Shown here piece by piece: positions 23,877 to 50,307 of a stretch of 64,000 nucleotides of DNA. The position numbers were made by a program, and so were the translations under genes. The notes under the pieces are model-generated. The model ran no database searches, had not been told where the DNA came from, and saw only the letters and a list, made by a program, of their open reading frames with translations. The DNA lies in NCBI RefSeq assembly GCF_000003815.2, contig NC_049981.1:29459535-29523534 (forward strand). Reading direction: 5' to 3'. Origin of the DNA: Branchiostoma floridae (taxonomy: Eukaryota > Chordata > Leptocardii > Amphioxiformes > Branchiostomatidae). Position 1 is the first letter of the stretch; every line of letters begins with the position of its first letter.

Positions 23877-24136
23877 CACAAAATCTCTCACAGTGATAGG
23901 CTGGAAATGGTTACAGTTATCTTTTTTCATTATAAATACTATATCAGATTAATATTATCCATTATTACTAGGCTGGTATAGATTCAGTCTGTATTCAACA
24001 TGTGACATTCATCTTGCCCATGGCTTGCAGGCAAGCACGGTGGAATCTTCAAATATGATGTTGGGGAACCACTGTGCTTGTGTGTACCAGTTTGTGAACA
24101 ATTTTTACCAATTCTCTTACAAACCCCACCTCCATT

Positions 24137-24150
24137 CCGTATCCTTCAGG
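24137..24150 (+). promoter_or_regulatory. Candidate 3' splice site ahead of the DUF229 start codon
   Basis: The run accccacctccattccgtatccttcag|g ends in a good acceptor (AG at 24148-24149), 28 bases before the ATG at 24178. If used, the coding sequence starts in the second exon and the open frame upstream is intronic. A weaker acceptor-like ttgcag lies at 24025-24030. Confidence 0.45.
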
Positions 24151-24177
24151 TTGAAGACGTTGAAATCTGAAGACGTT

Positions 24178-26409
24178 ATGCGGATCTTCAGGTACACCCA
24201 ACGATCTTATTTCGTGGTGTTGACTGTTGGGTTCCTTCTTTTGTCCGTCTACGTCCTTGAGATGAGGAATCCCCTGGAGGGCACGTATAGAACAGCTGAT
24301 GAGTTAGACACGACTCGCGTTGCCGGCGGAGTGGACCAAGCTGTGAGGATGACTGTACGGAAAGATGCCTCTTCCGGTCCCGACAAAGCGCCTTACATCA
24401 CAACAAATGAGATTGGCAAAGCTTCAGCGGGAAATGGGGAACGCACAGCAGACAATAGTTTAAACGTAGTACGTTTACAAAAAGCCGTGCCAACAACATC
24501 CACAGAGGCAATCGATCGACCGTTATGCAAATATCCGGACTTACAGATGGAAAGCTCAGAATTCAGCCATCTTTTTGAAAAAATAACAAACTTGAACTGC
24601 GGGCATGCCCCTATCAACTACCTAACATATTTAGACGGGAACATGCGGACGGATGAATCTCCGTGGGATGTAGTCAAACTAAACTCCAGTGCCCTCTTAC
24701 CGACACAGAAATTACTCAACTGCACGTACAGTACTATTAGTAGGAGATTCGGTGATTTCAATATCAGCTATACCATTTTGCACACAAAAGTATTTGTATC
24801 CAAGGAAGAAACTATGCAATTTCCATTCAAAGACGAATTCAGTAAGATTACCTGTTTCTTAGAAGAGGACGTCTTTAACAAAAGACAACAAGATTGGGTC
24901 AAAATCATCATAGAACACAACAACATGTTTGTGCAGGTAATAAGGAACGATTCCTTCGTTAAAGACAAAAAGGCGGAAATAGAGAAAAAAGGCCGAATGA
25001 AGAAGGCCATTGGACATGGTATGAACGTGCTCATGGTCGGGGTAGACTCGACCTCGCGGATGAACTTCATGCGAAAACTGCCCAAAACTTTCCAGTACTT
25101 CACAGAGACTCTGGAGGGTCACGTCCTGAAGGGTTATCACGTGATCGGTGACGGCACAACAGCCCAGTTCATTGCCATGTTGTCAGGGTTTCACGAGGAA
25201 GAGCTACCCAACGCGAAAACGGGAATGGAAAATGCAACGACCTGCGACGTATTTCCGTTAGTCTGGAAAAGGTTTAGAAGGATGGGCTACACGACCATGT
25301 ACGGAGAGGACGAACCGCAAACTGGAGCGTTCCAATATCGTTTAAAAGGCTTTAAAAGACAACCAACTGATTACTACATAAGGCCTTTCTGGGTGGCCCA
25401 AAAAGATTTAAAGTTTAAAGAGCGGTTCTGTTTTGGAGCAACCCCTAAGCATCACTACACACTGAAGTACGCACGCGATTTTGTGGAAGCGTATCATGAC
25501 ATACCCAAGTTTGCAATTGCGTTTCACACCGAACTCAGTCACGGCAGTTTGAACAGGGTGCAAGTTGCCGACGAAGACATTCTGACACTCATCAAATCAT
25601 GGAAGGACAAAGGCTACCTCAACAACACCGTTTTAATTCTTTTTTCTGACCATGGAGCCCGCTACGGTCGCCTTAGGCAGCTGCTTCAAGGTCGACTGGA
25701 GGAGAGGCTACCGTTCTTTGGAATCGCTGTTCCTCCTTGGATGAAGGAGAGTCATCCTGAAATCATCCGGAACCTCAAGATAAACGAAGAACGTCTGACG
25801 ACGGCGTTCGACTTCCACAAGACGCTGCAACACGTGCTGGACTATCCCGGCGACCCCTCCGGTTTCCAGGGACGCGGCCTCAGCCTTTTCCAGGAGATCC
25901 CGCTGAACCGAACATGCGAGGACGCCTCCATTGCCGACCACTGGTGCACCTGTCTAGAGTCCGTACCAGTCAACAAACGGAACAAACTACTTCGACAAGC
26001 AGCAGGTTTTGCAGTCTCCCACATGAATCGTTTGACAGCAATGCACCGAAAACTTTGTACTAAGTTGTTCCTGAAGAATATATCTCACGCAGAAATTATC
26101 AAACCCAACCGCAATTTACTACTATTTGGTGGCAGTGACCCGTTGTCTCGAGAGGCATTGTTTGATAATGGTAAAAACCTTACTGTCCCCTTTCTAGACT
26201 TTCGAATCACGTTGGAAACTGGACCGAATGGTGGAGCATACGAGGTGTCAGTAAGGAAATGGCTCTCTGATGAGAAGACTGAGATAACGGCAGACATCAG
26301 TCGCATCAACGCTTACGGAAACCATCCCAGCTGCATACAGGACAAGTTTCCTCATCTCAGGAAATTTTGCTTCTGCAGAGAGTTCCTGAAACCTGTATCT
26401 CCAGAGTAA
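24178..26409 (+). CDS. DUF229 family, alkaline-phosphatase-like type II membrane protein
   Basis: A 743-residue single-exon protein. Residues 1-10 are short and basic, and residues 11-27 (YFVVLTVGFLLLSVYVL) form one membrane segment, giving a type II signal-anchor layout with the bulk in the secretory lumen or outside the cell. A Cys-containing N-terminal region precedes the phosphatase-like core. The core shows GVDSTSRMNF (D290, S291), GDGTTAQF (D325, T327/T328, the expected nucleophile region), YGEDEPQTG, HTELSHG (H450, H455) and SDHGAR (D491, H492), then LEERLPFFG. This order matches DUF229 (Pfam PF02995), part of the alkaline phosphatase/sulfatase superfamily whose metal ligands are Asp/His. 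A late NRTCEDASIADHWCTC segment is also usual for the family. The substrate is unknown. The frame stays open upstream to 24025, with in-frame ATGs at 24055 and 24058, but no ATG at its 5' end. The ATG at 24178 is preferred because it places the membrane anchor at the N-terminus and follows a good acceptor. Confidence 0.9.
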   Translation: MRIFRYTQRSYFVVLTVGFLLLSVYVLEMRNPLEGTYRTADELDTTRVAGGVDQAVRMTVRKDASSGPDKAPYITTNEIGKASAGNGERTADNSLNVVRLQKAVPTTSTEAIDRPLCKYPDLQMESSEFSHLFEKITNLNCGHAPINYLTYLDGNMRTDESPWDVVKLNSSALLPTQKLLNCTYSTISRRFGDFNISYTILHTKVFVSKEETMQFPFKDEFSKITCFLEEDVFNKRQQDWVKIIIEHNNMFVQVIRNDSFVKDKKAEIEKKGRMKKAIGHGMNVLMVGVDSTSRMNFMRKLPKTFQYFTETLEGHVLKGYHVIGDGTTAQFIAMLSGFHEEELPNAKTGMENATTCDVFPLVWKRFRRMGYTTMYGEDEPQTGAFQYRLKGFKRQPTDYYIRPFWVAQKDLKFKERFCFGATPKHHYTLKYARDFVEAYHDIPKFAIAFHTELSHGSLNRVQVADEDILTLIKSWKDKGYLNNTVLILFSDHGARYGRLRQLLQGRLEERLPFFGIAVPPWMKESHPEIIRNLKINEERLTTAFDFHKTLQHVLDYPGDPSGFQGRGLSLFQEIPLNRTCEDASIADHWCTCLESVPVNKRNKLLRQAAGFAVSHMNRLTAMHRKLCTKLFLKNISHAEIIKPNRNLLLFGGSDPLSREALFDNGKNLTVPFLDFRITLETGPNGGAYEVSVRKWLSDEKTEITADISRINAYGNHPSCIQDKFPHLRKFCFCREFLKPVSPE

Positions 26410-34207: not shown

Positions 34208-34499
34208 ATCTGAATCATTGCATTATCCTCTCACTAACGTTTATTATGCTAATGCAGTTTATTGACACATTAACACTTTACATAACGTTATAGCAGCTAC
34301 TAGTAATCTAGACTAGACAGACCGCCTTGGACTAGCAAATCTTCATGCAGAATGTTGACGTATAAACTGTCCATGGAAAATTATCTTATTTGCACTAACG
34401 TAACGTTAGACAGAGCATGAACAATTCCTTCCGTACACCGCTACATGAAAGCACAACAGCGAATCGTCCGAAGTGTGTTGACTTTGTGTTTTGTTAACT

Positions 34500-34765
34500 G
34501 CCCGGAAGTGAGTTTGGAAATGAGAGGGTGCCCTGCCCATCCACGTGACGTAACTTCCGGCCCGGACGGCGCTGGTGTGGGCAGGCTCCAGTGGTAGTGG
34601 CAGCGGCGTGCCGAGTTCGATCCCCGCCCCCGCAACCACACACAACTCCCCGGAAAGTCCCCGATTGCGGAGAGACATGAACTGGCACGGGGACCACCGC
34701 CACATTGTCGTCTCGTCACCAAAGAGGAAGCACCACCAAGCCGATCGCGAGTCGCTGCCGCGGAC
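34500..34765 (+). promoter_or_regulatory. CpG-rich TATA-less promoter and 5' UTR of the neuregulin-like gene
   Basis: Sharp rise in GC and CpG directly before the signal-peptide exon. Recognisable sites: CCGGAAGT (34502-34509) and ACTTCCGG (34553-34560), two ETS-family sites in opposite orientation; CACGTG E-box (34542-34547); and TGACGTAA CRE-like site (34546-34553) overlapping the E-box. No TATA box is seen. Transcription probably starts near or after 34560, leaving a 5' UTR of up to ~200 bases; the start is inferred. Confidence 0.6.
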
Positions 34766-35240
34766 ATGTCGAGGTTAAAGAGACTGGAACCCGCGACCCT
34801 TCAACTGCTCGGGTGTGTACTCGTGTCGGCCCTGCTGTTGTCGGCCGTGCCACAGTCCCGGGCATGCGTCCCCCCACAGGGCGAAGGAGTCCGGACAAGT
34901 CCTGAGTGGCTAGCCTACCAGTCCCCCATCGTAGTCGACGCCAAAGTCGCGGAAACCCTGTCCCCAAACCCGGATTCCAACAGATACAACGCGACTTTTT
35001 CAATCAGGAATTTGAGAAGAAACGTTTTCAAAGGAGAGCTCTCCGGTCGGAGTAAAGTCATCACCGTAGCCCAGTTCGGAGCTGAGAAATCTTGTGTGGA
35101 CCTAAAGAAGGGCCAGAGATACTTCCTGTTCTTGGACCCGTTAGAAGAAGGATCGGACGTATACAGAGTCCACTTCAACCCGGTCTTATTCAACAAGAAA
35201 GACCAGAAAAAAATCAAGAAAGCTGTGTGCAAGGGTTGCG
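34766..35240 (+). CDS. Neuregulin-like first coding exon (type II/GGF-like N-terminal domain)
   Basis: Encodes about 158 residues before the splice. Residues 10-33 form a signal peptide (hydrophobic LQLLGCVLVSALLLSAV, probable cleavage after SRA, before C34). The mature part has Cys 34, 110, 155 and 158. It ends with KSCVDLKKGQRYFLFLDP, then LFNKKDQKKIKKAVCKGC. The order SC-x-LK-x-x-x-RY-x-x-F-x-(E/D)P followed by KK-x-V-x(n)-CK-x-C matches what I recall of the region before the Ig domain in type II (GGF) forms of vertebrate neuregulin 1 and 2, secreted or membrane-tethered ErbB ligands. The exon stops inside a Gly codon at a GTAAGT donor (phase 1), the phase expected for joining to an Ig exon. 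Without splicing the frame would run to 35359. An agrin NtA- or NTR-like secreted domain is the main alternative, since it has similar Cys spacing. Confidence 0.72.
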
Positions 35241-35246
35241 GTAAGT
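35241..35246 (+). promoter_or_regulatory. 5' splice site of the neuregulin-like exon
   Basis: GTTGCG|GTAAGT is a strong donor located exactly after the CK-x-C motif. Codon use and similarity stop there; downstream codons (Cys/Phe/Leu-rich) no longer look like secreted protein. Confidence 0.75.
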
Positions 35247-37839
35247 GTTTTTCTTGTTTTTTGGTTCTAGGTACCGTGTTGCGATCAGGTTTCGTTCGCC
35301 CCGCGGCGTTGAAATCTACAAAAGTCCTCCGTTTCTGTGGATTGAACAATCATGTTTAGGGAAAGCCTGTGTGTTTGTGGAGACACACAAGTACAAGGTG
35401 AAGCCCCCGACTGGCTCTTCCCTCTCCCGCACTTCTTCTGCTTCCTCAGAAACTTCAGGAATTGTTGTGCAACTTTTTGTGATGTAAGTCGGTGTGGGGA
35501 GGGGGGCAACAATTATCACACCTTGGGGAACACCTGTGAAAATTTGCACATCAACACCTTTACAGGTAGTCTGTGCAGGTATATTCTTTGCTTGGCGTTG
35601 TCTTGGATAGTTCTCTGGATGGCATTGAACTTCGTGTCTCGTAGGCAGGTTTTTCGCGGTCGCTCGTTACATGCTGGAGCAGTGCGTGAGGATTTTCCTC
35701 TTAAGGCGTAGTTGTGTTTCCATAGCGATCCATCATTTTAAAGGGCGGCATACGGATTTTCGTCCAATTGGCATATCGTTCCCCGGGTTTGGGTCGGGGT
35801 GGCGGCGCCAAATTGCGAAATGGGCCCTAGCATTTCCAGTTCATTGTCCCTGCCTATAAAATAGCTTTGCGGCTGATTTTGTATTCCGCGCACAGCGTGG
35901 GCCATATTAAACAAAGCTCAATCTGTCGCGGCATTGCGTTCAGCCTATTCAGGGAGATTACGAGGGACTACTCAGGGACCATATCGGCCCCCCAGAGTGG
36001 GGAGCTGACAAATTTGAATCTGCGGCAAATAAAATGAAATGATCCGCCCAGTTTATTATTCGGGGAGACCTTCTTTTTTTTTTTACTCTGGCATAGTGAT
36101 CAAGATAATTTCTCGCACGGCTGCGCTAGATCAATGGTGCAAAAATTGACCGCCTAAAAGCTCGGGGTAAAATATAGGCTTATCTCCTGGGGGATCAATG
36201 ATATGGGAACTCTGAGCGCCCGTTTTCGTCGAACTTGGCTTGCCATCAAATTGAATTCGATAGGGTCGCCGGCAAATGGAAATCCGCTCGATTTGAAATA
36301 CAAAAGGTGGAGAAAGCTACGCGGCAGATAAAGGCTTCTGGTTTCAATATCTAAATTAGCTACCTGAGACGCATGAACACTGTTCGCTTGTACCGATAAA
36401 ATACCGCTGTATTGACCGTGTCTGAAAGAATAGGCGTTACCGTTAATTACAGTACTCCCAAAATGTTGAAATATATAACGCTACATCATACATGGCTTAT
36501 TTCTGGGTGGTGTCTATCTTCTTTTCCTTTCTTTTCTTTTCTTGAAGTTGCAAGAAGCTGAGGGTGGTGCTGTACTGTATAAATATTACTTCATGTAGTT
36601 TCCTGAAGTGCCGCCTCCCACCCAAATATACCGAATACCTTTAGCATGCTGTAGTACACAGTCACCACCTCCCCCTCCCCATCAACTCGGCCACTGTTTA
36701 CATGTTTGTTTACGTTCCTCTCGTTGCCAAGGACGACGCCTCTCGGAACAGCAGCTAGGTTTTTGTGAAGTACTTACCTGGCCACTGTTAACAAAGCCTT
36801 CCTCATTCCCATAGTCTTAGCAAGAGCTTTCGACTTCCCAGTCTTGCGCAATCAGATCATCTGAGAATGACCTAACACTACAGGGGCTTCCCCCTCCCCC
36901 CAAGGAAAGTGTAGTGTCATTATGAACTTGCGTAGTATGGTGGTAGTGTGCTAGACTGAAATGGCAGGTTTGGTTTTACGAGAAGTTTCCGCTCTCCAGC
37001 GAGCTTTTCTTGACATAGGGAGTAATTCCTTCCGTTCTGTGAGGGTTGGGATTTGCTTGTTCTGAGTTGTACACCCTCTCTAGATGGACCGGAACCTCCT
37101 ATATTTGTTTTAGTGGGGCAGCCTCATTAAACGTAACCTCCTTGGCACTGTGAGTGAACAAGTTTTACCTGTATCGCCCCCTTAATGTCTGCAAAGGGTC
37201 CCAGGGGAAGTTTTGTTATATTGTCTTCCATCATCCATAATATATGGCTTTCCTGATATCTGCTTCTGTATAGCTATTTAATGAAATTAAAGCAAGTAGT
37301 TGCGATATGACTTATTCTATTAGAGCTCTTAGATCTTTATACACTGATTATATACTGAAAAATGCCTACTGTTATGTTAGAAAATTCTAACTAATAACCT
37401 GTAATATTGTCAGATTCACAGCAGAGTGTAATTGATTAGAGATGCCAAAAAGAAGCAATAATAACTTCTGTTTGATGTTTATTCTTAGCATTCAGGGGAT
37501 GTGTGTTTCTAAAAATAACAATAACATTGGACCAGTATTGGTTTAAAGGGATGTCCCTCCCCTTCTTTCCCTGGGTTTTGACCCTGGCTGATCCTAAGTA
37601 AATAAAATTTGGACTGCCCCAGCGGGCGACCACAAACTGGGAGGCTTTTTTTGGACCAAGGTCGCTCGTGTCGTGCCAGAGGTTGTGTTCTACCGCAGTT
37701 GGTTGGGCGCTCCTGAAATGTTGTGGTTTATCGATGTGTTCTACCACTTTAATCCATTTAAACTCCGCTTCTTGCCAGATCTGGTTCGAATTTTGTGGAG
37801 CCAGCGGTCTGGTTTCACTCCCGGACTTGGAAAGAGTCG

Positions 37840-37960
37840 CATCGTCCTTTCGGATGGGGATGTACCAGAAAGCCGATGGGCCAGTGCCTGATTAAGCTTG
37901 AATGTGGTGTCAAAACTCTGCAATTAAAAGAACCCAAAGCAGTCACTCAACTTTTCGAGA
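37840..37960 (+). mobile_element. Retroelement-derived repeat fragment
   Basis: The sequence catcgtcctttcggatgggg...gcaattaaaagaacccaaag follows the invertebrate repeat pattern TTTCGGATGGGACGT...TTAAAGAACCC. The related minus-strand copy is at 28385-28500. Overlapping ORFs in three frames have no domain. Confidence 0.45.
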
Positions 37961-39714
37961 AGAGTAGGGATTCACCTAGGGTGCTTCCCTGAAAACGCAA
38001 GCTTTATGAAACAGCATTGTACTACCACTAGCTACCTCAGTCAATGAGCAGTTTGACTGTTTTACCTTACCCTTTTACTAGTTTAGTCCTTTTTGCAATG
38101 TTCAAAAACTTTGTCATAAGGCCACACCAATTTAATTGATTGGTTCTCAGATTTGCCTCTTCATCTCTTCAAAAATTCTCGAAGAAATTAAGTCATTCTG
38201 GGCAAAATGATAAAAACTACTGGCACGTTTATAGCTTTGTTTAGTTTGTTAGCTGTAAGGTTCTGTAGCACTCATGAAATGTTACTGTTAATGTTCATTC
38301 ATTTGTTTAAATCCCTTTTGAGCTAGAATTCCTGATCATATATGATACAAAACTTGACTTCGTACTTTAGAAGGGTGCTAAGTTGAATGTATAGGTATGA
38401 TAATTAGTGTAGCGCTAGTAGCATTCTTGCTGTCTGTAATTTCATGACCCCATTCCCCCTGTTGTTCCTTATCCAGTAGACGCCACCGTCCTGCCATATC
38501 GACCACATGTATGCAGGCAATTCGCATAAAAGTGTTTGACAGATGAGCTATGCAGATCAGTGGCATCTGCAATATTTTAATCTTTTACCCGTATGTTGTG
38601 TGTCCTTGTTACGTAAAAATCTTGATACTGTCAAAAAGTGCATGCATATAACTATATTATATAGTAAGTTTATTTCAAATTCTTGCCTGTGGGCTAATTG
38701 CAGGTAACATGAGAGATTCAGACAAAGTAAAAACAATATCAAAGGTGTCTACTCTAGTCTAAAACTAGTAAAAGCTAACTCTAGATCATGGGTTATTGGG
38801 TTCGACTCCTTTTACGAAGTGCATGGATGAAATGGCCACTTCTCTACTGTTTAACCAAATTTCTAGAAAACATATATTTAATACTTTGTAAAAGGATTGA
38901 TAACTCATAATGCTAATTTTTTGTCTTCTGACTCGGAAATATGTGGTTGATTCATTTCACCAATTCTGTTGTCTTTTGATATCTATTTTTCAAGTCTGTA
39001 TTCTTTTAATATTGCCAAATTGCAAGCTTGAGATGTAACGTTATGTATATAGTTGAGTAGAGTAGAGTAGTTTCAGCCTGGTAGGAATATATTTATTGGA
39101 AAGGTAGCCCTTTTTATTTAAGTTACTATTTGGCATTGACAATTGATAGTGATTAAATATTTATAGACTATTTCTCAAATGCTAGGAAATTGTATATACA
39201 TACTGTACATACGTGTGAACAGCATGTATATATATGTTAGTTGATTTAAATTTGTATGGCTACATATATAGAATATATTTATTACGTAGACTATATTGGG
39301 CCAATATATCTGGCTTTACCATCAGCCAATACTACAAAAAGCTCAGCTGATAAAAGCCTATTAAAAGCACCCATCTAAATATTCCAGATGGCATATGCAT
39401 TAACAGGGAAGGCTCCAGTATTTTTATACCGTCCAAGGTCTATTGGCAGCCCCCTTTAGCCCACTGGGATATTACTACATGTGTAGTTTATATATCCTAA
39501 AAGGATACGTAAACTTGCAATTAGCCGGTAATTTACTTAAGGGCCTGTTATTTTTGGCTAAGCACTCACTCTATTTTCTTAACCATATTGATTTTGAATG
39601 AAGTGGTGTGAATTAATAAACATTGTGATTGGTTCATTGAGTAACGAGAAAATTGGTGAATAGCATTAGAGAAAGCCCCCCCTCCCTGCCCCCTCCCCCT
39701 TGGAATCAAAAGAA

Positions 39715-39830
39715 AGTCAAGTCAAGTCAAGTTTATTCATTATTGCACAACGATTGCATCAGGTACAATGTAATTTTTGTATGGCAAATAACATGTATTA
39801 CTAAAAAACTACAAACTAACTACATTAGTA
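39715..39830 (-). mobile_element. LINE 3' end with (TTGAC)n tail, minus strand
   Basis: On the minus strand the segment ends ...aatgaataaacttgacttgacttgac, an AATAAA-like word followed by a pentanucleotide tail. Non-LTR retrotransposons of the CR1 type end in short simple repeats of this sort. No coding part remains. Confidence 0.5.
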
Positions 39831-40109
39831 TACTAATCTAATATCACTACTTGATACAGAATATCGTGGTATAGTTCATTTCACATTGTTAAATGCGGCT
39901 AGTACTAGATGGGATTGCGGAAAAGCGCGCTCAAGTTTCTGAGATCCCACAGGATCACCCATAGAGATGGGGCCTAAAAATAACAGCGGGCCAGCTGAGG
40001 TTAAAAAGTCCTGCCTGCCTGCATGACCCTGTTGATAGAGACGTGGGGGCACCCCAGGGCCCACTCACCCCCCTATCAGGTGTCTCCCGCTCAACTGTTT
40101 GAACATTGT

Positions 40110-40466
40110 CAGGGCTCGAAATACCACCTGCATGTCCATGTTAGTGCAGGTAAAATTGGAGCTGGGCAGGTATTCCTGGTGTCTACCTGCACAGGTCCAT
40201 GTACTAACTGGGTTTTATACATAAATGTCCTATGATGTAGCTGTACATGGATTGTCATTAGCTCAGTCGCATTGGCTGTTACCACCTAATAGTATGAAGT
40301 TTATAACAAAAGAATAAGTAGCAATGGTTCCTGAACAATTTCAGTATGATCCATACTTCCTAAATTCAGAGTGGTGCAAGTAAAACTTGTCTGGTGCAGG
40401 TAATTTTTCAATGTTACCTGCACCAGTGTAGGTACATGTATGCACAAAAAAGTATTTCGAGCCCTG
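40110..40466. mobile_element. MITE with CAGGGCTCGAAAT termini, copy 2
   Basis: Starts CAGGGCTCGAAATACC and ends gtATTTCGAGCCCTG. The interior is rich in TGCAGGTA/TACCTGCA words in both orientations. The flanking sequences are themselves repeated: aactgtttgaacattgt at the left and aactgtttgaacactgt at 40492-40508 at the right. No clear TSD. Confidence 0.8.
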
Positions 40467-42419
40467 TATAAACTTCAAGCGTCTCCTGCGGAACTGTTTG
40501 AACACTGTTGATAAGGCCTCCGCGCCACGCCCAGCAGTTTGTCGTCCAGGACGCCTACACCGTGGGAAAAGACGTCGTCCACGTGTATAAAAAAATGTGT
40601 TCACTTGTAACTATATGCCAATGTTATATGCACCGTAATTAGTAAATCTAGTACTGCTGTTGTCCTGTGATTTCATTAATTAGAATTAGAAGTATTGTCT
40701 TTTATTTGTTATATTAGTTATGGAATTTTTTGTTAATTTTTCTTTTTTAAAATGTTAAAGCCTAACGTTTTGGCAAAATATTGTCAGACTAATTATTAAT
40801 AATTTTTTTATTGATCAAAGATTTTTGTTACCCCTTACCCCTACAAGATATGCCCCTTATCTCAAATGCATGTGCATGTATGTGCCGTGTACTTACTAAC
40901 GATCACTAACGAGCTAATAAGCTTATCATCATATCATCTCAACTGGAAAAACACTGCAAAATACTGCATCATTAGATTCAGACTTAATAAAGTAAAGATC
41001 ATTAGCTTCAGATGCCATTAAAAGGCATACTGGGTCATTAATTTAGTCTGGTCATGTATTTGTGTTTTGTTTAGGGTGATTATCTTGTTTTTCATACCAG
41101 TTTCTAAGGTAAACATTTTCCTCACCCCAATTTTTCACCGGGGAGAACAGCCTGCCCCCGAGTCTCCTTTGATCTGTGCTAAACACATCTTCATAAGGCA
41201 GCAGTTTCCTTTTTTAAACTACAGACAGTTGTTCAGTGAGCAGAGACACTGCCGACATGCCACCCACAAAAAAATATGTCAGCGCATCCCTTCAGAAGGG
41301 GGCCTGGTATGCCAACAAAGTAATCCGACACCGCCAGACGTCATCACTTCTGTAGGCACCGACCACACTATCGCTTTCCAACCATTGTTAGTTTTACTCA
41401 AGTGGCTAGAATTCTTGTCCTGCGATTGGGAACTTTTGTTTGTAGAACACATTATGATACCACTGTTGCATATGTCACCGTAGGGTGGGGATAGGAAGTG
41501 AGCAGTGGTGGTGTCCCGGAGTTAGATAGGATTAATTACATAAAGGGGGCGGCAATTGTGTGATGCCGGGTTTCCGCTATGTCTTACCCCGGCATTTCCC
41601 TCCATTCAGTTATTGTGGTGAAGGGTACTGTGTAAAAAGCCGTTCAATTTCGTCGGAATTTGCACCCGGGCCCGTATTTCACACAGATGTAGACGGGGGT
41701 GACACAAATGGTCTGGTTCCAAAAATGGCCGGCGGACGGACGAGCGTTCCAAATGGCGCTGACCCTGTTTTGGCCGCGCTGCCCCGGCGAACGCCCCTCG
41801 TCTTTATCGTCTAATCCCGAAGAGCAGCTGCGGCTCTCGAGAAATAACACGGCAGAAAACTGCACAGCTTATGACAGTCTTTTTACAGGCTGGTTTTCTT
41901 ACAGGCGACCTTTATGACATGATGTGCTTTACAGCTAAGTGTGCGTCTGCTTTATAGATCAACACCATCCCAGTTGGGACGGGGACAATCAAAATGTAAT
42001 ACTCCATGTCAAGGGTTTGACATAAATATTACTTGCATTTTACAGCTGCAAATGAAAAAGGGAGAATGGTTGTACTGTTAGGATCAAATGTCATTTGGAA
42101 GTCCATTTATAACCCTTTATGACAAGCAGTCTTCAATTCACCCCCCCACCAGCATTAAAAAAGTGCCTTCATCTGTGATGAGTGACATATATATACATAT
42201 GTTGGTACATTTAGAAATACTAATGCCAACAAAGAAGGAATAAGTTTATATTTTCCAACTTCAGTCACTATCCATTTTGATGGATGGCAACATCAGTGAA
42301 ATGAAAAAAAAGTTATGAGACTATTAAATCAGAACAAGGAGGTTAAAGAATCACAGGAGAGAGCTCAGTCATTAACACCCCACTGCGGGCTATTGTTCAG
42401 ACCCTCCGGGCCCATTGTT

Positions 42420-42700
42420 TCCGCTATCCGGCGGCGCGTCTCTGATGACCATCATGGCCGCGGGGTTTCCCGCCATTTCTGATGAGCCCGGACGTGTCAG
42501 CCAATCACATGAGCCCAGCCATGACGTCATGCACCGCGATCCCGGCCGAGGACGACCGAGGGTTGCCGAACTGTGAGCGAGATGAGCGCAGTTTCCGCAG
42601 ATTTCCTTATTTGGGAAGCGAAGGTGACGTGTGCAAACAGTACTGTTGTGGAGAGACCAAGATGGCGATCATGTCGATACTTGTTTCGGCGCTGTGCGAC
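42420..42700. promoter_or_regulatory. Promoter-like CpG island inside the putative intron
   Basis: A sudden GC/CpG-rich block carrying CCAAT (42501-42505), a perfect ATGACGTCAT (42521-42530) and AAGATGGCG (42659-42667, a YY1-type downstream element). CCAAT-16 bp-CRE spacing is typical of strong TATA-less promoters. The orientation of the CCAAT box and the downstream AAGATGGCG suggest rightward transcription starting around 42560-42670, but leftward or bidirectional firing is possible. A 76-codon frame (42482-42712) overlaps the island but has no recognisable domain. Confidence 0.5.
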
Positions 42701-44750
42701 CAAGTTGAGTGAATTTACAGGCATTTTTGTCGCTGTATCCCCGATTTTTTTGTCTCAGAATTATGAACAATATTCTCTACTTCATGTGTCTATTAAAAAA
42801 TTATTACGCTTGCCCCGCAAAAGAGACTTTTTTTCAACGATAGTAGTGGGCTTGGGTGTGCCAAATAAGTATTTGTTGTTGCTGTTTGCGATCGATTTTT
42901 GCTGTTCGTGATGCATGAATTTTGTACTCTGAGGGCTCCGTGGATGTTCATGGCAATGATGGGAAGCAAGATGATATTTCCGAGGAAATTTATTTTGTCG
43001 GTATTGAGGGAATTTTTGCCTCACGAGGAACGCAATTTTTTTACACAGATGGCTTGATATCTTAATTTGACAGACTTGAAAATAAAGTTGCATAGCGTTT
43101 CTCAAGCTTCTTACAAATACTATGAAATAGCTCCGTGTGTCCTGGGCTATGAAAGCCGACCCAGCGTTCTTCTACACCGCGTGACTTGTTGTTACACACA
43201 TTTCTGTGGCCCGTGGGGAACTATGCTCGCACTTGCCTCAGGCGAAGTATCGTCACTATTGATATCTGTTTCCTTAGTAAAAGTAGCGCTGTATTTAATG
43301 AGAATCATCCTCAAAATCGCTGAAATCCCGGCCCCAAATCGATGTTCCTGGACGAGTGATGTTGAAACTGACTCGTAAACAAAGGCCCACGCTAGCCTGG
43401 CGAGATGCAGATTGGGGCAATTAGCACTTCGATGTGATTCACACTCGCGGCAAAGATCGGAACAATAGGAACGCTCTCCTCTCTTTCTTTAACCTCCTTG
43501 ATCAGAATGATGTCTCTCTATTACATTCAAATTTATCTTCATTAGATATTATGTACCATATTGGGCATAAAAACAAGCACAGCATCAAGGCTGCTGATTT
43601 TTCATTTAAGAATGTGACCTCAGAATATGTAAAACAGTGCAGTCTTTTCTTTGTGTGGAGTGTTTATTGTTCTTCTACCAGTGTCAATAAAGTCATGTAG
43701 ATAATATTACATCTTGTTTTATAAATGCTTGCACATGTAGATGATTTGTCAGATGATACAATACAAAAGTCAATACAAAAGTGAATGTAAATTGAAGAGA
43801 ATAAAGCTTGCTCATCTCTTTATCTCGCTTTTAGAATTGTTTCCAGCTTCCTTCTAGTCTGAAACGTAGGACTGATATAATACTAAAGTAAACAGTTGCA
43901 ATATTAAATAAAGGACACCAGCTGCAAGTGCCAACATGATAATGGCATTGATTATTTCTTTTAGCGCCAGGGGGATAAAAGTGGCTGCGAAATTGACAGT
44001 GTCACATGTTTGTGTCATTGTATCAATGGTAGTCTCCATTGTGAAGAGTTGGTCTATTTATTTATTCATCTTCAAAATATCTTGGCTAACCCCTCAACCT
44101 AGCCTGGATACCAGACTCTGGCCAGACCTCAATGTCTATGGTGCATGTGTTAAATAATTGTACAAGCTAACTCTACACAAGCTAACATAAAATTGATTCG
44201 GATTGAACAAGCTACTCTAGTTCAAAGCACATGGTAGAACTATTTTCTACCAAAAGTTGTTTAAACTTGACACAGACATATGAAACACGTGTGGACTCAG
44301 TATAGCATTTGATATACTTCTATATATTTCATTTTTAATCTGATAGCCATCGCAGGTAATTAAATTTTGAAGTCCAAAAGTCTCCCAGTATGATTCATGG
44401 GGCCCATATGGACCGGTGGCACGAATACATTGTGAGGATGAAGCATGGTGTATACATGTAAAGGATGGCTGCGTTATTCCTTCCACGGATATCACAGAGC
44501 GACGGATTCCATTCTTACTCCCCTGTTACCCCTGTTGCATGATTGGGAGGGATTTGGCTGGCGTACCAGACATGATGACAAATTAATATAGTGACTGAAA
44601 CAGTTTTGGCACAGTTGTGCATGGGTGGGGGGTGATTATGATTTTAATTAAGAAAGACCTGTTAATCCCCAGTTCAATGGAAATGCTGAGAAGGGAGTGG
44701 TCTCCAGGGACTTGTGTTCAGGGGATCGCTGGCAAGTACTGGCAAGTAGC

Positions 44751-44923
44751 TAATCTCCAAGCAGATCCTAGAATGGTATAAGATAGTACCAAACTGGCCA
44801 AGGAGTGTAGTCAGCCAAGTGGTGTCCATTTGCCATGTAGCAAAACACACTTCTAAGCCGGCTTCACTCCTTTGCCAGCTTTTGATACTATCTCATGCTA
44901 CCGTAGGATCTGCTTGGAGATTA
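44751..44923. mobile_element. MITE family B, copy 2
   Basis: Starts TAATCTCCAAGCAGATCC, ends GGATCTGCTTGGAGATTA, with the mirrored aagatagtaccaaactggccaaggagtg interior. Confidence 0.88.
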
Positions 44924-44925
44924 CT

Positions 44926-45255
44926 AGAAGCAGCAATCTCAAAGCAGACCCTACGGTGCTATAAGATAGTATCAAAGCTGGCCAAGGCGTACAGCTGAAC
45001 AAAGGGAGTCAAACGGGCACCGGGGTAGCCATACACTCCTAGGCCGGCTGCACTCCTTTGCCAGCATTTGATACTATCTTATGCTACCGTAGGATTAGAT
45101 TGGATACCAGACCCCAACCTCATTTCTATGGTATCCGATAAATTTCTAATTCTATCGTATCCGATAGATTTCTGTTGTATAGGATAGATATTTTTGAGAT
45201 CGGGTTGTTTGGGGATCTGGTAACCAGACTCGCATATAGGATCTGCTTGGAGAAG
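44926..45255. mobile_element. MITE family B, copy 3, interrupted by another MITE
   Basis: Left end aatctcaaagcagaccctac at 44934. The right half proceeds to accgtaggat (45083-45095), then breaks and resumes with taggatctgcttggag near 45237. The foreign ~140 bp between begins ggataccagaccccaa and ends with the inverse ggggatctggtaaccag, and the taggat word is duplicated at the joints. The octamer agaagcag flanks the whole copy on both sides. Confidence 0.75.
45095..45236. mobile_element. Small MITE nested in family B copy 3
   Basis: Terminal words ggataccagacccc / ggggatctggtaacc are inverted relatives, with internal tatccgata repeats. Joint duplication taggat suggests a ~6-bp TSD. A related single end (ctggataccagactc) lies near 44105. 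Confidence 0.62.
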
Positions 45256-45261
45256 CAGCCT

Positions 45262-45400
45262 CTGTTGGTAACCGGAAGAGCGCAGTTCAAATTCAGGGAA
45301 GGGCATCTTGGTTGGGGCTGCTCCCGTCTTTTCAAAGGGTCGTAAAATGGTATCCGGTGTTCGAGGAGGTGCCATATGCACGTTAGCAACCCTTCCCTGT
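45262..45400 (+). mobile_element. SINE fragment, same family as 12262-12440
   Basis: ttggtaaccggaagagcgcagttcaaattcagg, then gggcatcttggttggggctgctcccgtcttttc...gtaaaatgg, collinear with the minus-strand SINE at 12.3 kb. The A-box part is missing, so the copy is 5'-truncated. Confidence 0.65.
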
Positions 45401-47579
45401 AAAAATATGCCTCAAGTTCCACTAGGTACTACAAGGTGAACAAGAAGAACTGGTTGTTTTGGATATGATTGCATAATGGTTATTGTCTGGATACTTTCAT
45501 TCATGTACAATCAACTTTGTATCTTTCAAAAATGGCGTAGCAAAAAACCTTTCATATGTTGTGACAGAAGAAGTTAATGACTTGAACAAAATTTTCAAGG
45601 AAAAGGAAAATATAGCACAAGATGAAAGAGGCTGTTAGGTTAAAAAAATCTTTGCACCAAGATCAAGATTCAGATTTTTTACATGTGAATATGAAGGGAA
45701 GATGCCCACCTGCACATACCTGACACACTTATGTTATGCATGACATAATAATTTGGGCAGGTTTAATTTCCGTGTTGGCGCACCAATTTCCTTGTTCCCA
45801 TATCTCCAACATCGCACCAGTGCTAGCTTCATCTCCTGTCTATTTGTGGAATTCGGACTCCCGCCAGACAATCGATGACAAGCATGCGGTTTCAGTTTTT
45901 TCAGTCGTGATTGAAAGAGGAGAGAAAATACAACTAGAACTAGTACTGGAGGAAAACTAAATAACTCTGTATGAATTTCTTGAGTGAAAAAAAATTAACA
46001 ATCATTTTGTACTTCAATTGTGAGATATTTTTTGTTCTGCTTTGGATTTGTCCCCCTCCCATGCACAAAGTGGAATAACCCATTTGAAAACAAGGCTCAA
46101 GTTTTTGGTGCTCTTTACCAAAGTAAGTGGTGGAACGTGCCATTGTTTTCTTAGTGGGATGAAATGTTAAGTTATTATCACACAGGAATCTAATACAGGC
46201 TTTTTGTGGCTGACAGACAAAGAAGAAAAATGCTCAGGAAAAAAACACATCCTGTGAAACACATTCTTGACAAAGCGTGTTGTATGTCTTTTTGTTCAAC
46301 GCTAAATGCAACGGTAGACTTTTGGATAGTGCATCATGCGTGCACTGTGTACAAAACACTGTATAGGAGGTGCAGAAAGACATCCTTGCACTAGAAAAAT
46401 AAACGCTGTATTCTTTCAGGGAAATTTCCTTTCAATGTGGGTACGTTCGCAAAATAATCACCCCCTACACACGTGCCGGAAAGGCCTTGAATAGTACAAC
46501 TGCATCTGTTGTTCTTGGGTTCCCACATACACAAGAAAGGCTGACTACTGATTCATCGTATATCTTGTTGACGTATGTTCTGTGTTTACAAACCTGTTTC
46601 CAAAGCTGGTTGAGAAGTTGTCAAAATACACGTTTGAATGCTATTATCAAGAATGTCTTTTCATTTACATGGCTGGATTAGATGGTGTCAGCATTCGGAT
46701 CATTTGTATAGAAGAAGAGTAAGTTTAAAAACAAAGTCACAGACAAGAACTAGTTGTAGAAGTTTTAATTCAAATCTTAGCTGATAATTGATATTATTAT
46801 TTTTTTGTTCAATGCCACCGATATTCTGGGAAGGTCTTCTTTCTTGTTTCTTCTTTCCTATAGCAGACTTCGGCCTGATCTATATAATATCTATCGGGTC
46901 TAACTGAAAGTTTCTTGGGGGCATGTTGGCTCTAGAGCCGAGGAGTTGGACTGTATACGTTCTGGAAACAGTCTAGCATCCTGGGTATTCATAGGTTTTT
47001 ATGCATGATCATGAAAGAGAAACAAGTATGATGTAAGATTTTAGAATAAATCAGGCAATGTGCTTCTTCCTTCTTGGGAAAACTTCCTACAGCGATTGGG
47101 TGACGTTATCTTTTGCTTGATACCAATGAGTCATTTTTCTGTGAATTTCGAGACATAGAATCCACTGTTTTTCATTCTTTTCTCAGAAATGGTGTAAAGG
47201 TATACGGTAAATCCTAATAATAGTACTATGACGTGAGTTAATGCGTAGTGCTTCCTTGTGCCTTCAGCATACATTAACTTCCTGCATATGATGCTGTAAT
47301 CAATGTTCACTACCGTACATGTTTGTATGTTGATCAATTGTAGATAGGTAACATCAACTCTCATTCTACCAGGTGCTATAATACCGCTTCATTTCAAAAA
47401 ATAATGTTGTTAAAACTTATAGAGGCCTTCTAAAGATTGTCTTGATATGTAACTTGAAGTATATATACCTCAGGATTACTGATGCTGTAATGTTACTAGT
47501 CTGTGTAACACAAACTCTCTTGTCTGGGGCTGCTATAAGTGCGATTAATCAAGTACATTGGTACATATCTTTAAATCAC

Positions 47580-47860
47580 TTTATAACTTCCACGGAAACA
47601 AATCATCCTTTTTTCCTCCACAATCCACCTAACAGGAGGAAGTTCCACGCTCAGAGCTTTTTTCCTAGAACAACATCGCTATGGAATAAGCTTCCACGGA
47701 CTTGCTTCCCCACAGGGTACAGCCTGAAACTGTTTAAATTAAGGGTAAACAAACATCTCTCTTCACAATTCAGTAATGTAACCCAAAACGCTTGAGTGGC
47801 TCCACGAGCCTTGTTTTGCGGTGACATCTAAGTAAATAAAAAATAAATAAAAAAAAGTTT
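47580..47860 (+). pseudogene. Truncated LINE: C-terminal end of a reverse-transcriptase ORF
   Basis: The frame ending at 47795 contains FHAQSFFPRTTSLWNKLP followed by a FK-x-R-V-N-K-H-L motif. This is the conserved C-terminal tail of ORF2 in non-LTR retrotransposons (R-x-x-S-F-F-P-R-T-x-x-x-W-N-x-L-P). The stop is followed by a ~60-base 3' UTR and an A-rich taaataaaaaataaataaaa tail. Everything upstream of about 47580 has lost similarity, as in a typical 5'-truncated insertion. The ORF's upstream residues (from 47442) are chance extension. Confidence 0.75.
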
Positions 47861-48177
47861 TCTCATGTGGCGGTATTATGGCATCTTGTGGAATTATGAG
47901 AGTCGACGTTAAACATGTGGCTACAAGTTGAAACAACTGTGGACCCCAGGCTATTATTAGACTGCAGGTGGCATGTATAACTAGTAGGAGATCTTCTTTG
48001 TGACAAGCAAAAGGTTGTGAGTTCTACGGTAATTTGACCTGTGACCTGCTCACCTGTGGGCGCGACTGTTTACCTGGTGTACACCTGGAATGCCAGGTAT
48101 CCCGTGGGGCCCACGTGTCCCCAACCGCTTCCTACACCCTTCTGAACAGAAGGGTCGTTAACCACACGTATTTACAT

Positions 48178-48810
48178 GTTACAGCCACAAACGGACACTT
48201 GTTTTTGTTTTAACTAGTTAAGCATGTCTTTTCTCCTTTGTGAGAGTGAATTTGTCAGTATGATATGCAGTTATATTTTTTTCCATGCATTGTAATACAG
48301 AGTCACTAGATATCACTTCAATTATTACAGCCGCAAACTGGACACTTGTTTTTGTTTTAACTAGTTAGCTCTTTAACTATGGTAGCATAAGATAGTACGA
48401 AAAGCTGGCAGAGGAGTGAAGCCGGCTTAGGAGTGTGTTTTGCTACCGGGGCAAATCATTAATGGACACCTTTTGGCTGACTACACTCCTTAGCCAGTTT
48501 ATCTTATGCCATTATAGGATCTGCTTGGAGATTACTAGTTCACATGTCTTGTATCCTAAAGGGAGTGTGAATTTGTCAGTATGGTATGCAATTATATTTT
48601 GTCCATGTGGTATATTAAAGAGTCACTAGATATCACATAAATTATTACAGCCGCAAACTGGATATCTGTCTTTGTTTTAACTACATGTAGTTGAGCATGT
48701 CTTGTGATGTTTCTGGAGTCTCATTTGGGAGAGTGAATTTGTCAGTATGATATGCAATCATATTTTGTCCATGTATTGTATTATGGAATCACTAGATATC
48801 ACTCAAATTA
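48178..48810. repeat. Three tandem ~148-bp units, the middle one carrying a MITE
   Basis: Units at 48178-48324, 48325-48644 and 48645-48810 each run ttacagccgcaaactgga... gtgaatttgtcagtatgatatgca... gtcactagatatcac. The middle unit is longer by ~170 bp because of the insertion at 48367-48534. The third has ~17 extra bases. Confidence 0.85.
48367..48534. mobile_element. MITE family B, copy 4, inserted in a tandem repeat
   Basis: Right end GGATCTGCTTGGAGATTA intact; left end decayed (agctctttaactatggtagc). The word (a)ctagtt is present on both sides (48360-48366 and 48534-48540), whereas the adjacent empty unit has it once. Confidence 0.8.
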
Positions 48811-48985
48811 TGAATTATTCATTTCAATTATCAGTGACACTACAGTATGGTTAATATAATTGTATCAAATTAAATCATTGTATATTTTCTCCAAAGGCCA
48901 TGTGAAATGGTAAATATTAATGTTACACCATTCGCTTTCTAAACTACAACTGATTTGATAGATATTTTGTTTGGTGTCATACAGG

Positions 48986-49616
48986 CTATAACAGGGAACG
49001 GGTTTTCTGCGCGTTAAAAATCTGCGCGCGCGTTAAAAATCTGCGCGTTAAAAAATTAAGTTGTGCATTGATAAATTCTTAGTCAGAAAAATGTGACCCC
49101 ATTATATGATTTTCCCTCTGCTACCTGAATTTTTGGTTTGAAAAGCCCCTAATTTTTTGGTCCCTCGGGAATAGGCTAATTTGCATATCCAGATGATATC
49201 AAAATCACTTGAATTTGACACAAATACATGGAAAAATTACTAATATGAGGCTTTGTGTTGTAAAATATAACTGCTTGAGGCTTTTCTCCATTCTACAAGC
49301 TTCATTTAATCTTTTCTCAAGCAGATTGTTTCACATGCAAATGTCAACCCTTGTTGCGCGTTAAAACTTAACATTTAAAAATCACTTTAAAACTCCTGGA
49401 ATATTTACAGAAAGGGATATTGTACTCTAGAATGCAACAATATGATACTTAATTTCATTTTGTGTTATCATCTTCATGCTTTTAAGTTAAAAACGGCAAA
49501 AAAGTTTTCAAATCCCGAGGGAACCAGCTAATTTGCATATTTTAACGCGCAGGTTTTTAACGCGCAAGTTTTAACGCGCAAATTTTAACGCGCACAAAAC
49601 CCCAACCCCTATAACA
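48986..49616. mobile_element. hAT-like element (615 bp) with 8-bp TSD and GCGCGTTAAAA arrays
   Basis: The 8-mer ctataaca lies at 48986-48993 and 49609-49616. The element between starts GGGAACGGGTTTTCTGCGCG and ends with the inverse of GGGTTGGGGTTTTGTGCGCG. Three GCGCGTTAAAA units sit just inside the left end and four inverted ones just inside the right end, a subterminal array of the kind transposases bind. A ctaatttgcatat word next to ccctcggga/cccgaggga occurs near both ends. No ORF of size. Confidence 0.88.
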
Positions 49617-50307
49617 GAGATCTTGTCTGTTGATATTATGTTGACTTCTTTGATTTTGGAATCTTGAATTGTATTTTTTGTGTATTATGAAGAAAGCAAG
49701 ACCTCTGACCTCCTCCAGCCTTGAAATCTTGAAAAAACGGCTTAGACCGAAGATGTATCAAAAAGGTTAGATAAAGGTCAACAAAGAAAAGAAAAGAAGA
49801 CTGAACTTTTCTGACGTAGTGGAATCCTTATCTGTATCTCAGCGTTTCCGGTCTCCCGTGTTTCCTATGACTGGGTCGTGTTGTGTGGAAACTTGATCTC
49901 TGCTGGAAATACCGTAAATTGTTGCCGAATTCAACATCACCCTGAGACAAAGATGTGGGATCTTTCAAGTGAAACCACAGTCATGGTGTCCCTTTACCAA
50001 ACACGTAAAAACTGTGATAGAAAATGTGTACGGAGTTCAAGCTTCTTATTTCTCTGATGCTCTTTTATCAACCTTACATATCGTCTGAATCAAATTGTAA
50101 ATTCCAACACAAAAATTGCAATTTGCAACGGATCCACTGCTTACTGAGTCACGTATTTGCATAACGTGACATCACAGAAGCAGTGGTTGCTCATTTCTTG
50201 CCAAAGACTGGAGTTGGACAGTCAAAAAGTCCCATTTTTATGTTGGAAATTACAGTTCAACCTTTATTGAGTTGTATATCAACACAGATGAACTTTCAAC
50301 TTGAACT

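Follow-up and report, generated by a model that had tools for sequence, protein, structure and literature searches.

Does the open reading frame that begins at position 34766 of a 64,000-nucleotide stretch of Branchiostoma floridae DNA (hereafter the window) open a cephalochordate neuregulin gene, and does its leader date from before the vertebrate neuregulin duplications? Both had been proposed in a preliminary description of the window. In the present study, these proposals were followed within the window and in the region beyond it, taken to 118.9 kb 3' of the first exon (about 90 kb of that outside the window, 154 kb searched in all). Window numbering is kept throughout and equals genome position minus 29459534. 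The human neuregulin baits (NRG1, NRG2) and the agrin, TIMP and PURA comparison sequences were approximate copies rather than database entries. Genome-wide searches covered 513,431,437 bases in 431 contigs and score the best candidates only.

Results

The first exon and its domain

The first coding exon occupies 34766-35240 on the + strand (475 nt, or 158 codons plus 1 nt). The frame is open from the ATG at 34766 to 35240 and is followed directly by a phase-1 donor (G/GTAAGT), as had been proposed. The preliminary limits, 34766-35246, were right at the start and too long at the end, where six intron bases were taken in, so that the last two residues of the 160-aa ORF protein (P0001) are non-exonic. 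The part of intron 1 inside the window runs from the donor GTAAGT at 35241 to 64000 in phase 1. The exon product consists of a hydrophobic leader (...PQSRA/C34), a domain of ~120 residues and a CKGC end. Read by eye, residues 1-33 (34766-34864) form a putative signal peptide ahead of Cys34, in line with the earlier reading, and cleavage is proposed before this cysteine. The motif SCVDLKKGQRYFLFLDP is present at 35090-35140, with the real spacing SC-x(2)-LK-x(3)-RY-x(2)-F-x-DP and not the SC-x-LK first given, and the expected KK-x-V-CK-x-C is found as KKAVCKGC at the end of the domain (35216-35239).

Residues 49-140 (34910-35185) belong to the NRG2_N family (PF25518), scoring 91.2 bits where the cut-off is 27 (E 4.9e-26) and aligning to profile positions 1-88 of 90. 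In the 513-Mb genome, one match was reported for the NRG2_N family (3 candidates scored) and one for the exon-1 protein (2 candidates scored); the window lies on contig C3. A GC- and CpG-rich, promoter-like stretch covers the gene start at 34401-35100 (maximum GC 0.62, maximum CpG o/e 1.02), one of three stretches in the 154 kb that pass the criteria used (500-base windows, GC ≥ 0.55, CpG o/e ≥ 0.8).

The gene model beyond the window

Seven further exons were identified downstream of the window and on the same strand: a pair encoding Ig, a pair encoding EGF, and single transmembrane (TM), juxtamembrane (JM) and cytoplasmic (ICD) exons, the last of these ending the series. The Ig-a exon (68573-68744, +) was a weak profile match with a phase-1 acceptor that fits exon 1, and the Ig-b exon (72077-72198, +; 122 nt) was found with a hand-made Ig profile run over phase-2 acceptors. 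The EGF-a exon (90069-90195, +) was recovered by a regex scan and by a profile built on human NRG1 and NRG2; a looser pattern yielded the EGF-b exon (95828-95901, +). The split exons had escaped the initial regex scans. The intron between EGF-a and EGF-b divides the EGF domain between its fourth and fifth cysteines. The NRG1/NRG2 profile gave the TM exon (102374-102476, +; 103 nt), reading of the ORFs gave the JM exon (103947-104055, +), and the ICD exon with its stop (105574-106320, +) had a weak BLAST line and was recognised by its tail. The human NRG1 counterparts of the Ig-b and TM exons likewise measure 122 and 103 nt. EGF-a has two possible phase-1 acceptors, at 90069 or 18 nt further, and the frame is kept with either. 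A Pfam search of two of the three forward frames over ~35241-50241, inside intron 1, found no family.

Joined together, the eight + strand exons give a frame of 642 aa to the stop, with GT-AG borders at all seven introns and exon end phases of 1, 2, 1, 2, 1, 2 and 0 that are compatible throughout. The start and stop codons of the gene lie ~71.6 kb apart. From the sequence, the predicted architecture is a leader, NRG2_N, an I-set Ig domain, a split EGF domain, a short stalk and a neuregulin-type TM helix, followed by a basic juxtamembrane stretch and a cytoplasmic tail. Two side observations concern this part of the locus. A possible furin-type cleavage site, RLRR, stands just before AEEIHQKR in the stalk at the EGF-b/TM junction (95828-95901/102374-102476), and we know of no such site in human neuregulin stalks. 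A long GGTT-type tetranucleotide repeat occupies ~90256-90500 and begins ~60 bases past the EGF-a donor.

Agreement with neuregulins, part by part

Pfam analysis of the joined protein placed NRG2_N (88.4 bits) and four Ig families above their cut-offs, I-set with 52 bits against 23.7. The order expected of a type II neuregulin, NRG2_N and then I-set, is thus found in one predicted chain, whose splice join was deduced from phase and splice sites. The Pfam EGF family scored 11.8 bits, below its cut-off of 21.5. The EGF part has the six cysteines of a neuregulin-type domain, and its top four PDB sequences are NRG1 (3u7u, E 3.7e-5, to 7mn5, 2.2e-4), followed by an EGF/TGF-alpha chimera and EGF from 1.3e-3; a further NRG1 chain, 1hae (E 0.0028), ranked under EGF chains. 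The Ig domain had a generic I-set look in the PDB, where Robo, titin and DCC lead and no neuregulin stands within the best 60 of 255 rows.

Each part was also scored by its best BLAST bits against human NRG1/NRG2, with 300 shuffles as the control. The juxtamembrane/TM segment reached 62.0 bits (shuffle maximum 22.3), the N-terminal part 44.3 (27.3), the EGF part 35.4 (21.9) and the Ig part 35.0 (24.6). The N-terminal and Ig parts are closer to NRG2; against NRG1 they scored 33.5 and 12.7 bits, the Ig value being below the shuffles. The TM exon is 75.8% identical to human NRG1 over 33 aa (E 4.1e-11). The cytoplasmic part as a whole was not significant (18.1 bits, shuffle maximum 27.3), whereas 10 of the C-terminal 27 aa are identical to human NRG1, a score equalled by none of 20000 shuffles; because the match is confined to these last residues, only the tip of the cytoplasmic tail is recognisable, and it resembles NRG1. 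The neuregulin cytoplasmic family PF02158 was unmatched in the joined protein (E ≤ 1) and in the genome search, the latter a weak test in that this profile is also silent in every control genome.

Taken singly, several exons score low. In the profile search with human NRG1/NRG2, only TM (2.8e-13) and EGF-a (0.0085) passed the inclusion threshold, Ig-a (0.53) and EGF-b (1.3) staying under it, and the last exon had only a BLAST line of E 2.8. The hand-made Ig profile gave Ig-b an E of 0.0026 among 313 phase-2 candidates and of 0.032 among all ORFs. At E ≤ 0.01 in the 154-kb region, human NRG1 found the TM exon only and human NRG2 exon 1 only, and the reversed-region control had no matches at this level. 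The exons are tied together as one gene by their order, strand, splice sites and frame.

A candidate second, type III-like first exon

The core of the type III NRG1 leader had one clear match in the 154 kb, at 79066-79191 (34.3 bits; E 1.1e-5, or 2.2e-5 composition-corrected), and none of 500 shuffled core queries reached this score (maximum 29.3). It was also the sole match reported at E ≤ 10 in the whole genome, with a modest E of 0.032 (one candidate scored). The match lies within a candidate alternative first exon at 78994-79387 (+), between Ig-b and EGF-a. Its ATG at 78994 stands in ACCATGG with an in-frame stop just 5', it encodes a membrane segment and LKWIWVDHIF, and its phase-1 donor at 79387 fits the EGF-a acceptor, giving a joined type III-like product of 517 aa. 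The exon matched no Pfam family at E ≤ 10, and the genome search with the exon itself reported one match (one candidate scored). The likeness extends over ~42 aligned residues of an approximate query, and the other support comes from position, phase and uniqueness. In human NRG1, the type III exon is located between the Ig and EGF exons. We consider it probable, if less certain than the type II start, that 78994-79387 is a second (type III) start of the same neuregulin gene.

Surroundings of the gene

An intronless 794-aa ORF lies upstream on the same strand (24025-26409, +) and is DUF229/sulfatase-like (DUF229 410.9 bits, E 9.4e-123 in Pfam). Among the 29 ORFs of at least 100 aa in the window, 12 others searched against Pfam had no family above cut-off. 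Beyond the window, an ORF at 147934-148458 (+) with KSRVFIGNLNT...GYAFVQY, under a CpG-rich stretch, resembles by eye an RNA-binding (hnRNP C/RALY-type) protein, and two adjoining long ORFs at 121943-124059 (-) resemble by eye pieces of a LINE-type element. The PUR genes, neighbours of human NRG1 and NRG2, were also sought. No PUR-NRG synteny was found, since all six PurA exon matches reported in the genome search lie on C16, and PURA matched nothing in the 154-kb region at E ≤ 1. A search of prokaryote contigs gave no relative, as expected.

Discussion

Thus, the sequence evidence indicates that 34766-35240 is very probably the first exon of a cephalochordate neuregulin gene, with an eight-exon frame that extends beyond the window. 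The earlier claim of a neuregulin leader of GGF type II is borne out by the NRG2_N family and by the Ig, EGF, TM and cytoplasmic exons downstream in compatible phases. The next exons in the gene model encode Ig and then EGF segments, rather than the non-Ig/EGF exons that the preliminary description had named as evidence against it.

Three other explanations were weighed. First, the locus might consist of two genes: one at 34766 whose product is a short, secreted protein with NRG2_N, and another, starting further downstream, for an Ig-EGF ligand. The 33 kb that separate exon 1 from the Ig exon would suit such a division, as would the type III-like exon, which suggests an existing downstream start. 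However, exon 1 and Ig-a are compatible at their junction, donor and acceptor both being in phase 1, the join reads ...CKGC-EKAPKIRG and resembles CKRC-ALPPQLKE in type II NRG1, and the genome search (3 candidates scored) reported no further NRG2_N exon. We regard two genes as very unlikely.

Second, exon 1 might belong to the agrin NtA, TIMP and NTR group and merely resemble neuregulin leaders, which we consider very unlikely. Agrin NtA aligns with the exon weakly and colinearly (Smith-Waterman z 3.8, 5 of 1000 shuffles as good). The hhalign score for NtA was 19.05, the highest of 60 shuffles being 17.78, at a probability of just 2.6%. The mature chain of TIMPs starts with Cys, and the proposed mature chain does so as well. 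Against this, NRG2_N was the sole Pfam family of the exon-1 protein at E ≤ 10. Agrin and TIMP chains were absent from the PDB matches at E ≤ 10 both for the single protein (3 unrelated chains, E 1.2-1.8) and for a 3-row profile (1 unrelated chain, E 0.89). Human NRG2 aligned with z 17.6, a score equalled by none of 1000 shuffles of residues 34-158, compared with 2.1 for TIMP1 and 0.9 for TIMP2. The comparison with agrin NtA and TIMP/NTR that the preliminary description had called for thus leaves NRG2_N as the best match in Pfam and NRG2 in direct alignment. As the immediate family of exon 1, NtA/TIMP was rejected at the level of family sequence, being far weaker than NRG2. The faint colinear signal might reflect an ancient shared origin of NRG2_N and NtA. 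The AlphaFold2 model of P0001 from a single sequence (mean pLDDT 41.4, pTM 0.23) was too poor for a judgement of the fold.

Third, an assembly artefact or pseudogene is extremely improbable, for although the 154-kb region contains five N runs, all of them are outside the span of the eight exons, and all eight exons are open, ordered and intact at their splice sites.

As a neuregulin gene with a type II leader, the locus can be compared with known systems. Like vertebrate NRG2 and type II NRG1 (GGF2), it has an NRG2_N leader, a CxxC end and a phase-1 junction to Ig, followed by EGF, an AEE..QKR stalk and a transmembrane helix. Unlike GGF2, it is without a long Ala/Gly/Pro-rich insert, and its cytoplasmic domain is divergent from those of vertebrate NRG2 and NRG1, with no PF02158 match. 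The candidate second start resembles type III NRG1 (SMDF, CRD-NRG) in being a separate first exon between Ig and EGF, in its membrane segment followed by LKW-x-x-VD-x-IF, and in a phase-1 donor fitting the EGF exon. In contrast to type III NRG1, the amphioxus exon is without a cysteine cluster ahead of the membrane segment, and its linker is unlike; this cluster gives the vertebrate type III domain (CRD) its name. Drosophila vein is not known to have an NRG2_N domain or the transmembrane part of a neuregulin. Vein is alike in being an Ig and EGF ligand, termed NRG-type in PMC4914847.

Several reports bear on the novelty of these observations. In Tables 1 and 2 of PMC4914847, B. floridae is credited with one EGFR and with five EGF ligands, one of them neuregulin-like; the latter is probably the present gene. 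The ligand classes of this survey are based on Ig and EGF domains, and type II or III leaders are not mentioned in its extract. In other papers, no clear Ciona or amphioxus orthologues are reported for the vertebrate Egfr ligands analysed, a set kept apart from the neuregulins (PMC2834686), Nrg1 is given a vertebrate origin in a list of neural-crest genes (PMC1868935), NRG1 is concluded to be present in zebrafish only among six selected proteomes (PMC3865767), and neuregulin is named in the reference list alone (PMC8672417). No paper on type II or III leaders outside vertebrates was found by title or start of abstract in the open-access literature; RefSeq annotation may already name this neuregulin gene.

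Herein, we propose how the gene would work. According to PMC8064692, vertebrate neuregulins bind their receptors through the EGF domain, type II NRG1 has a GGF domain plus Ig, and type III NRG1 is a hairpin processed by BACE1. By analogy, the amphioxus leader would direct the ectodomain to secretion, and NRG2_N and Ig would anchor the ligand or hold it in place extracellularly. Proteolysis of the stalk would release the ectodomain, and the EGF domain would activate the amphioxus EGFR. A second promoter before ~78994, which is probable but less certain, would yield a type III form that has an N-terminal membrane segment of its own and lacks Ig, acting as a cell-surface hairpin in contact signalling. 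Because a single EGFR is tabulated for B. floridae (PMC4914847), both forms may act on one receptor, without the division of labour among ErbB2, ErbB3 and ErbB4.

Evolutionary meaning

The earlier claim that the leader predates the vertebrate neuregulin duplications is supported by the one reported genomic NRG2_N match, which fits a gene from before these duplications. The type III start of NRG1 has a counterpart in NRG3, which has a type III-like start. We think it likely that a single pre-duplication neuregulin gene had both starts, type II (NRG2_N plus Ig, shed) and type III (membrane hairpin, contact), arranged as in human NRG1, and that the vertebrate copies then sorted them, NRG1 keeping both, NRG2 type II and NRG3 the type III-like start. 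The vertebrate-style set of leader, Ig, EGF and TM, probably with both starts, in a cephalochordate suggests an isoform system older than the whole-genome duplications. To our knowledge, amphioxus has no myelin and no neural crest. If the proposal is true, the contact form of neuregulin, which governs myelination, would be older than myelin, Schwann cells and the neural crest, and the roles of type II and type III forms could be tested in an animal for which one EGFR is tabulated (PMC4914847, Table 1).
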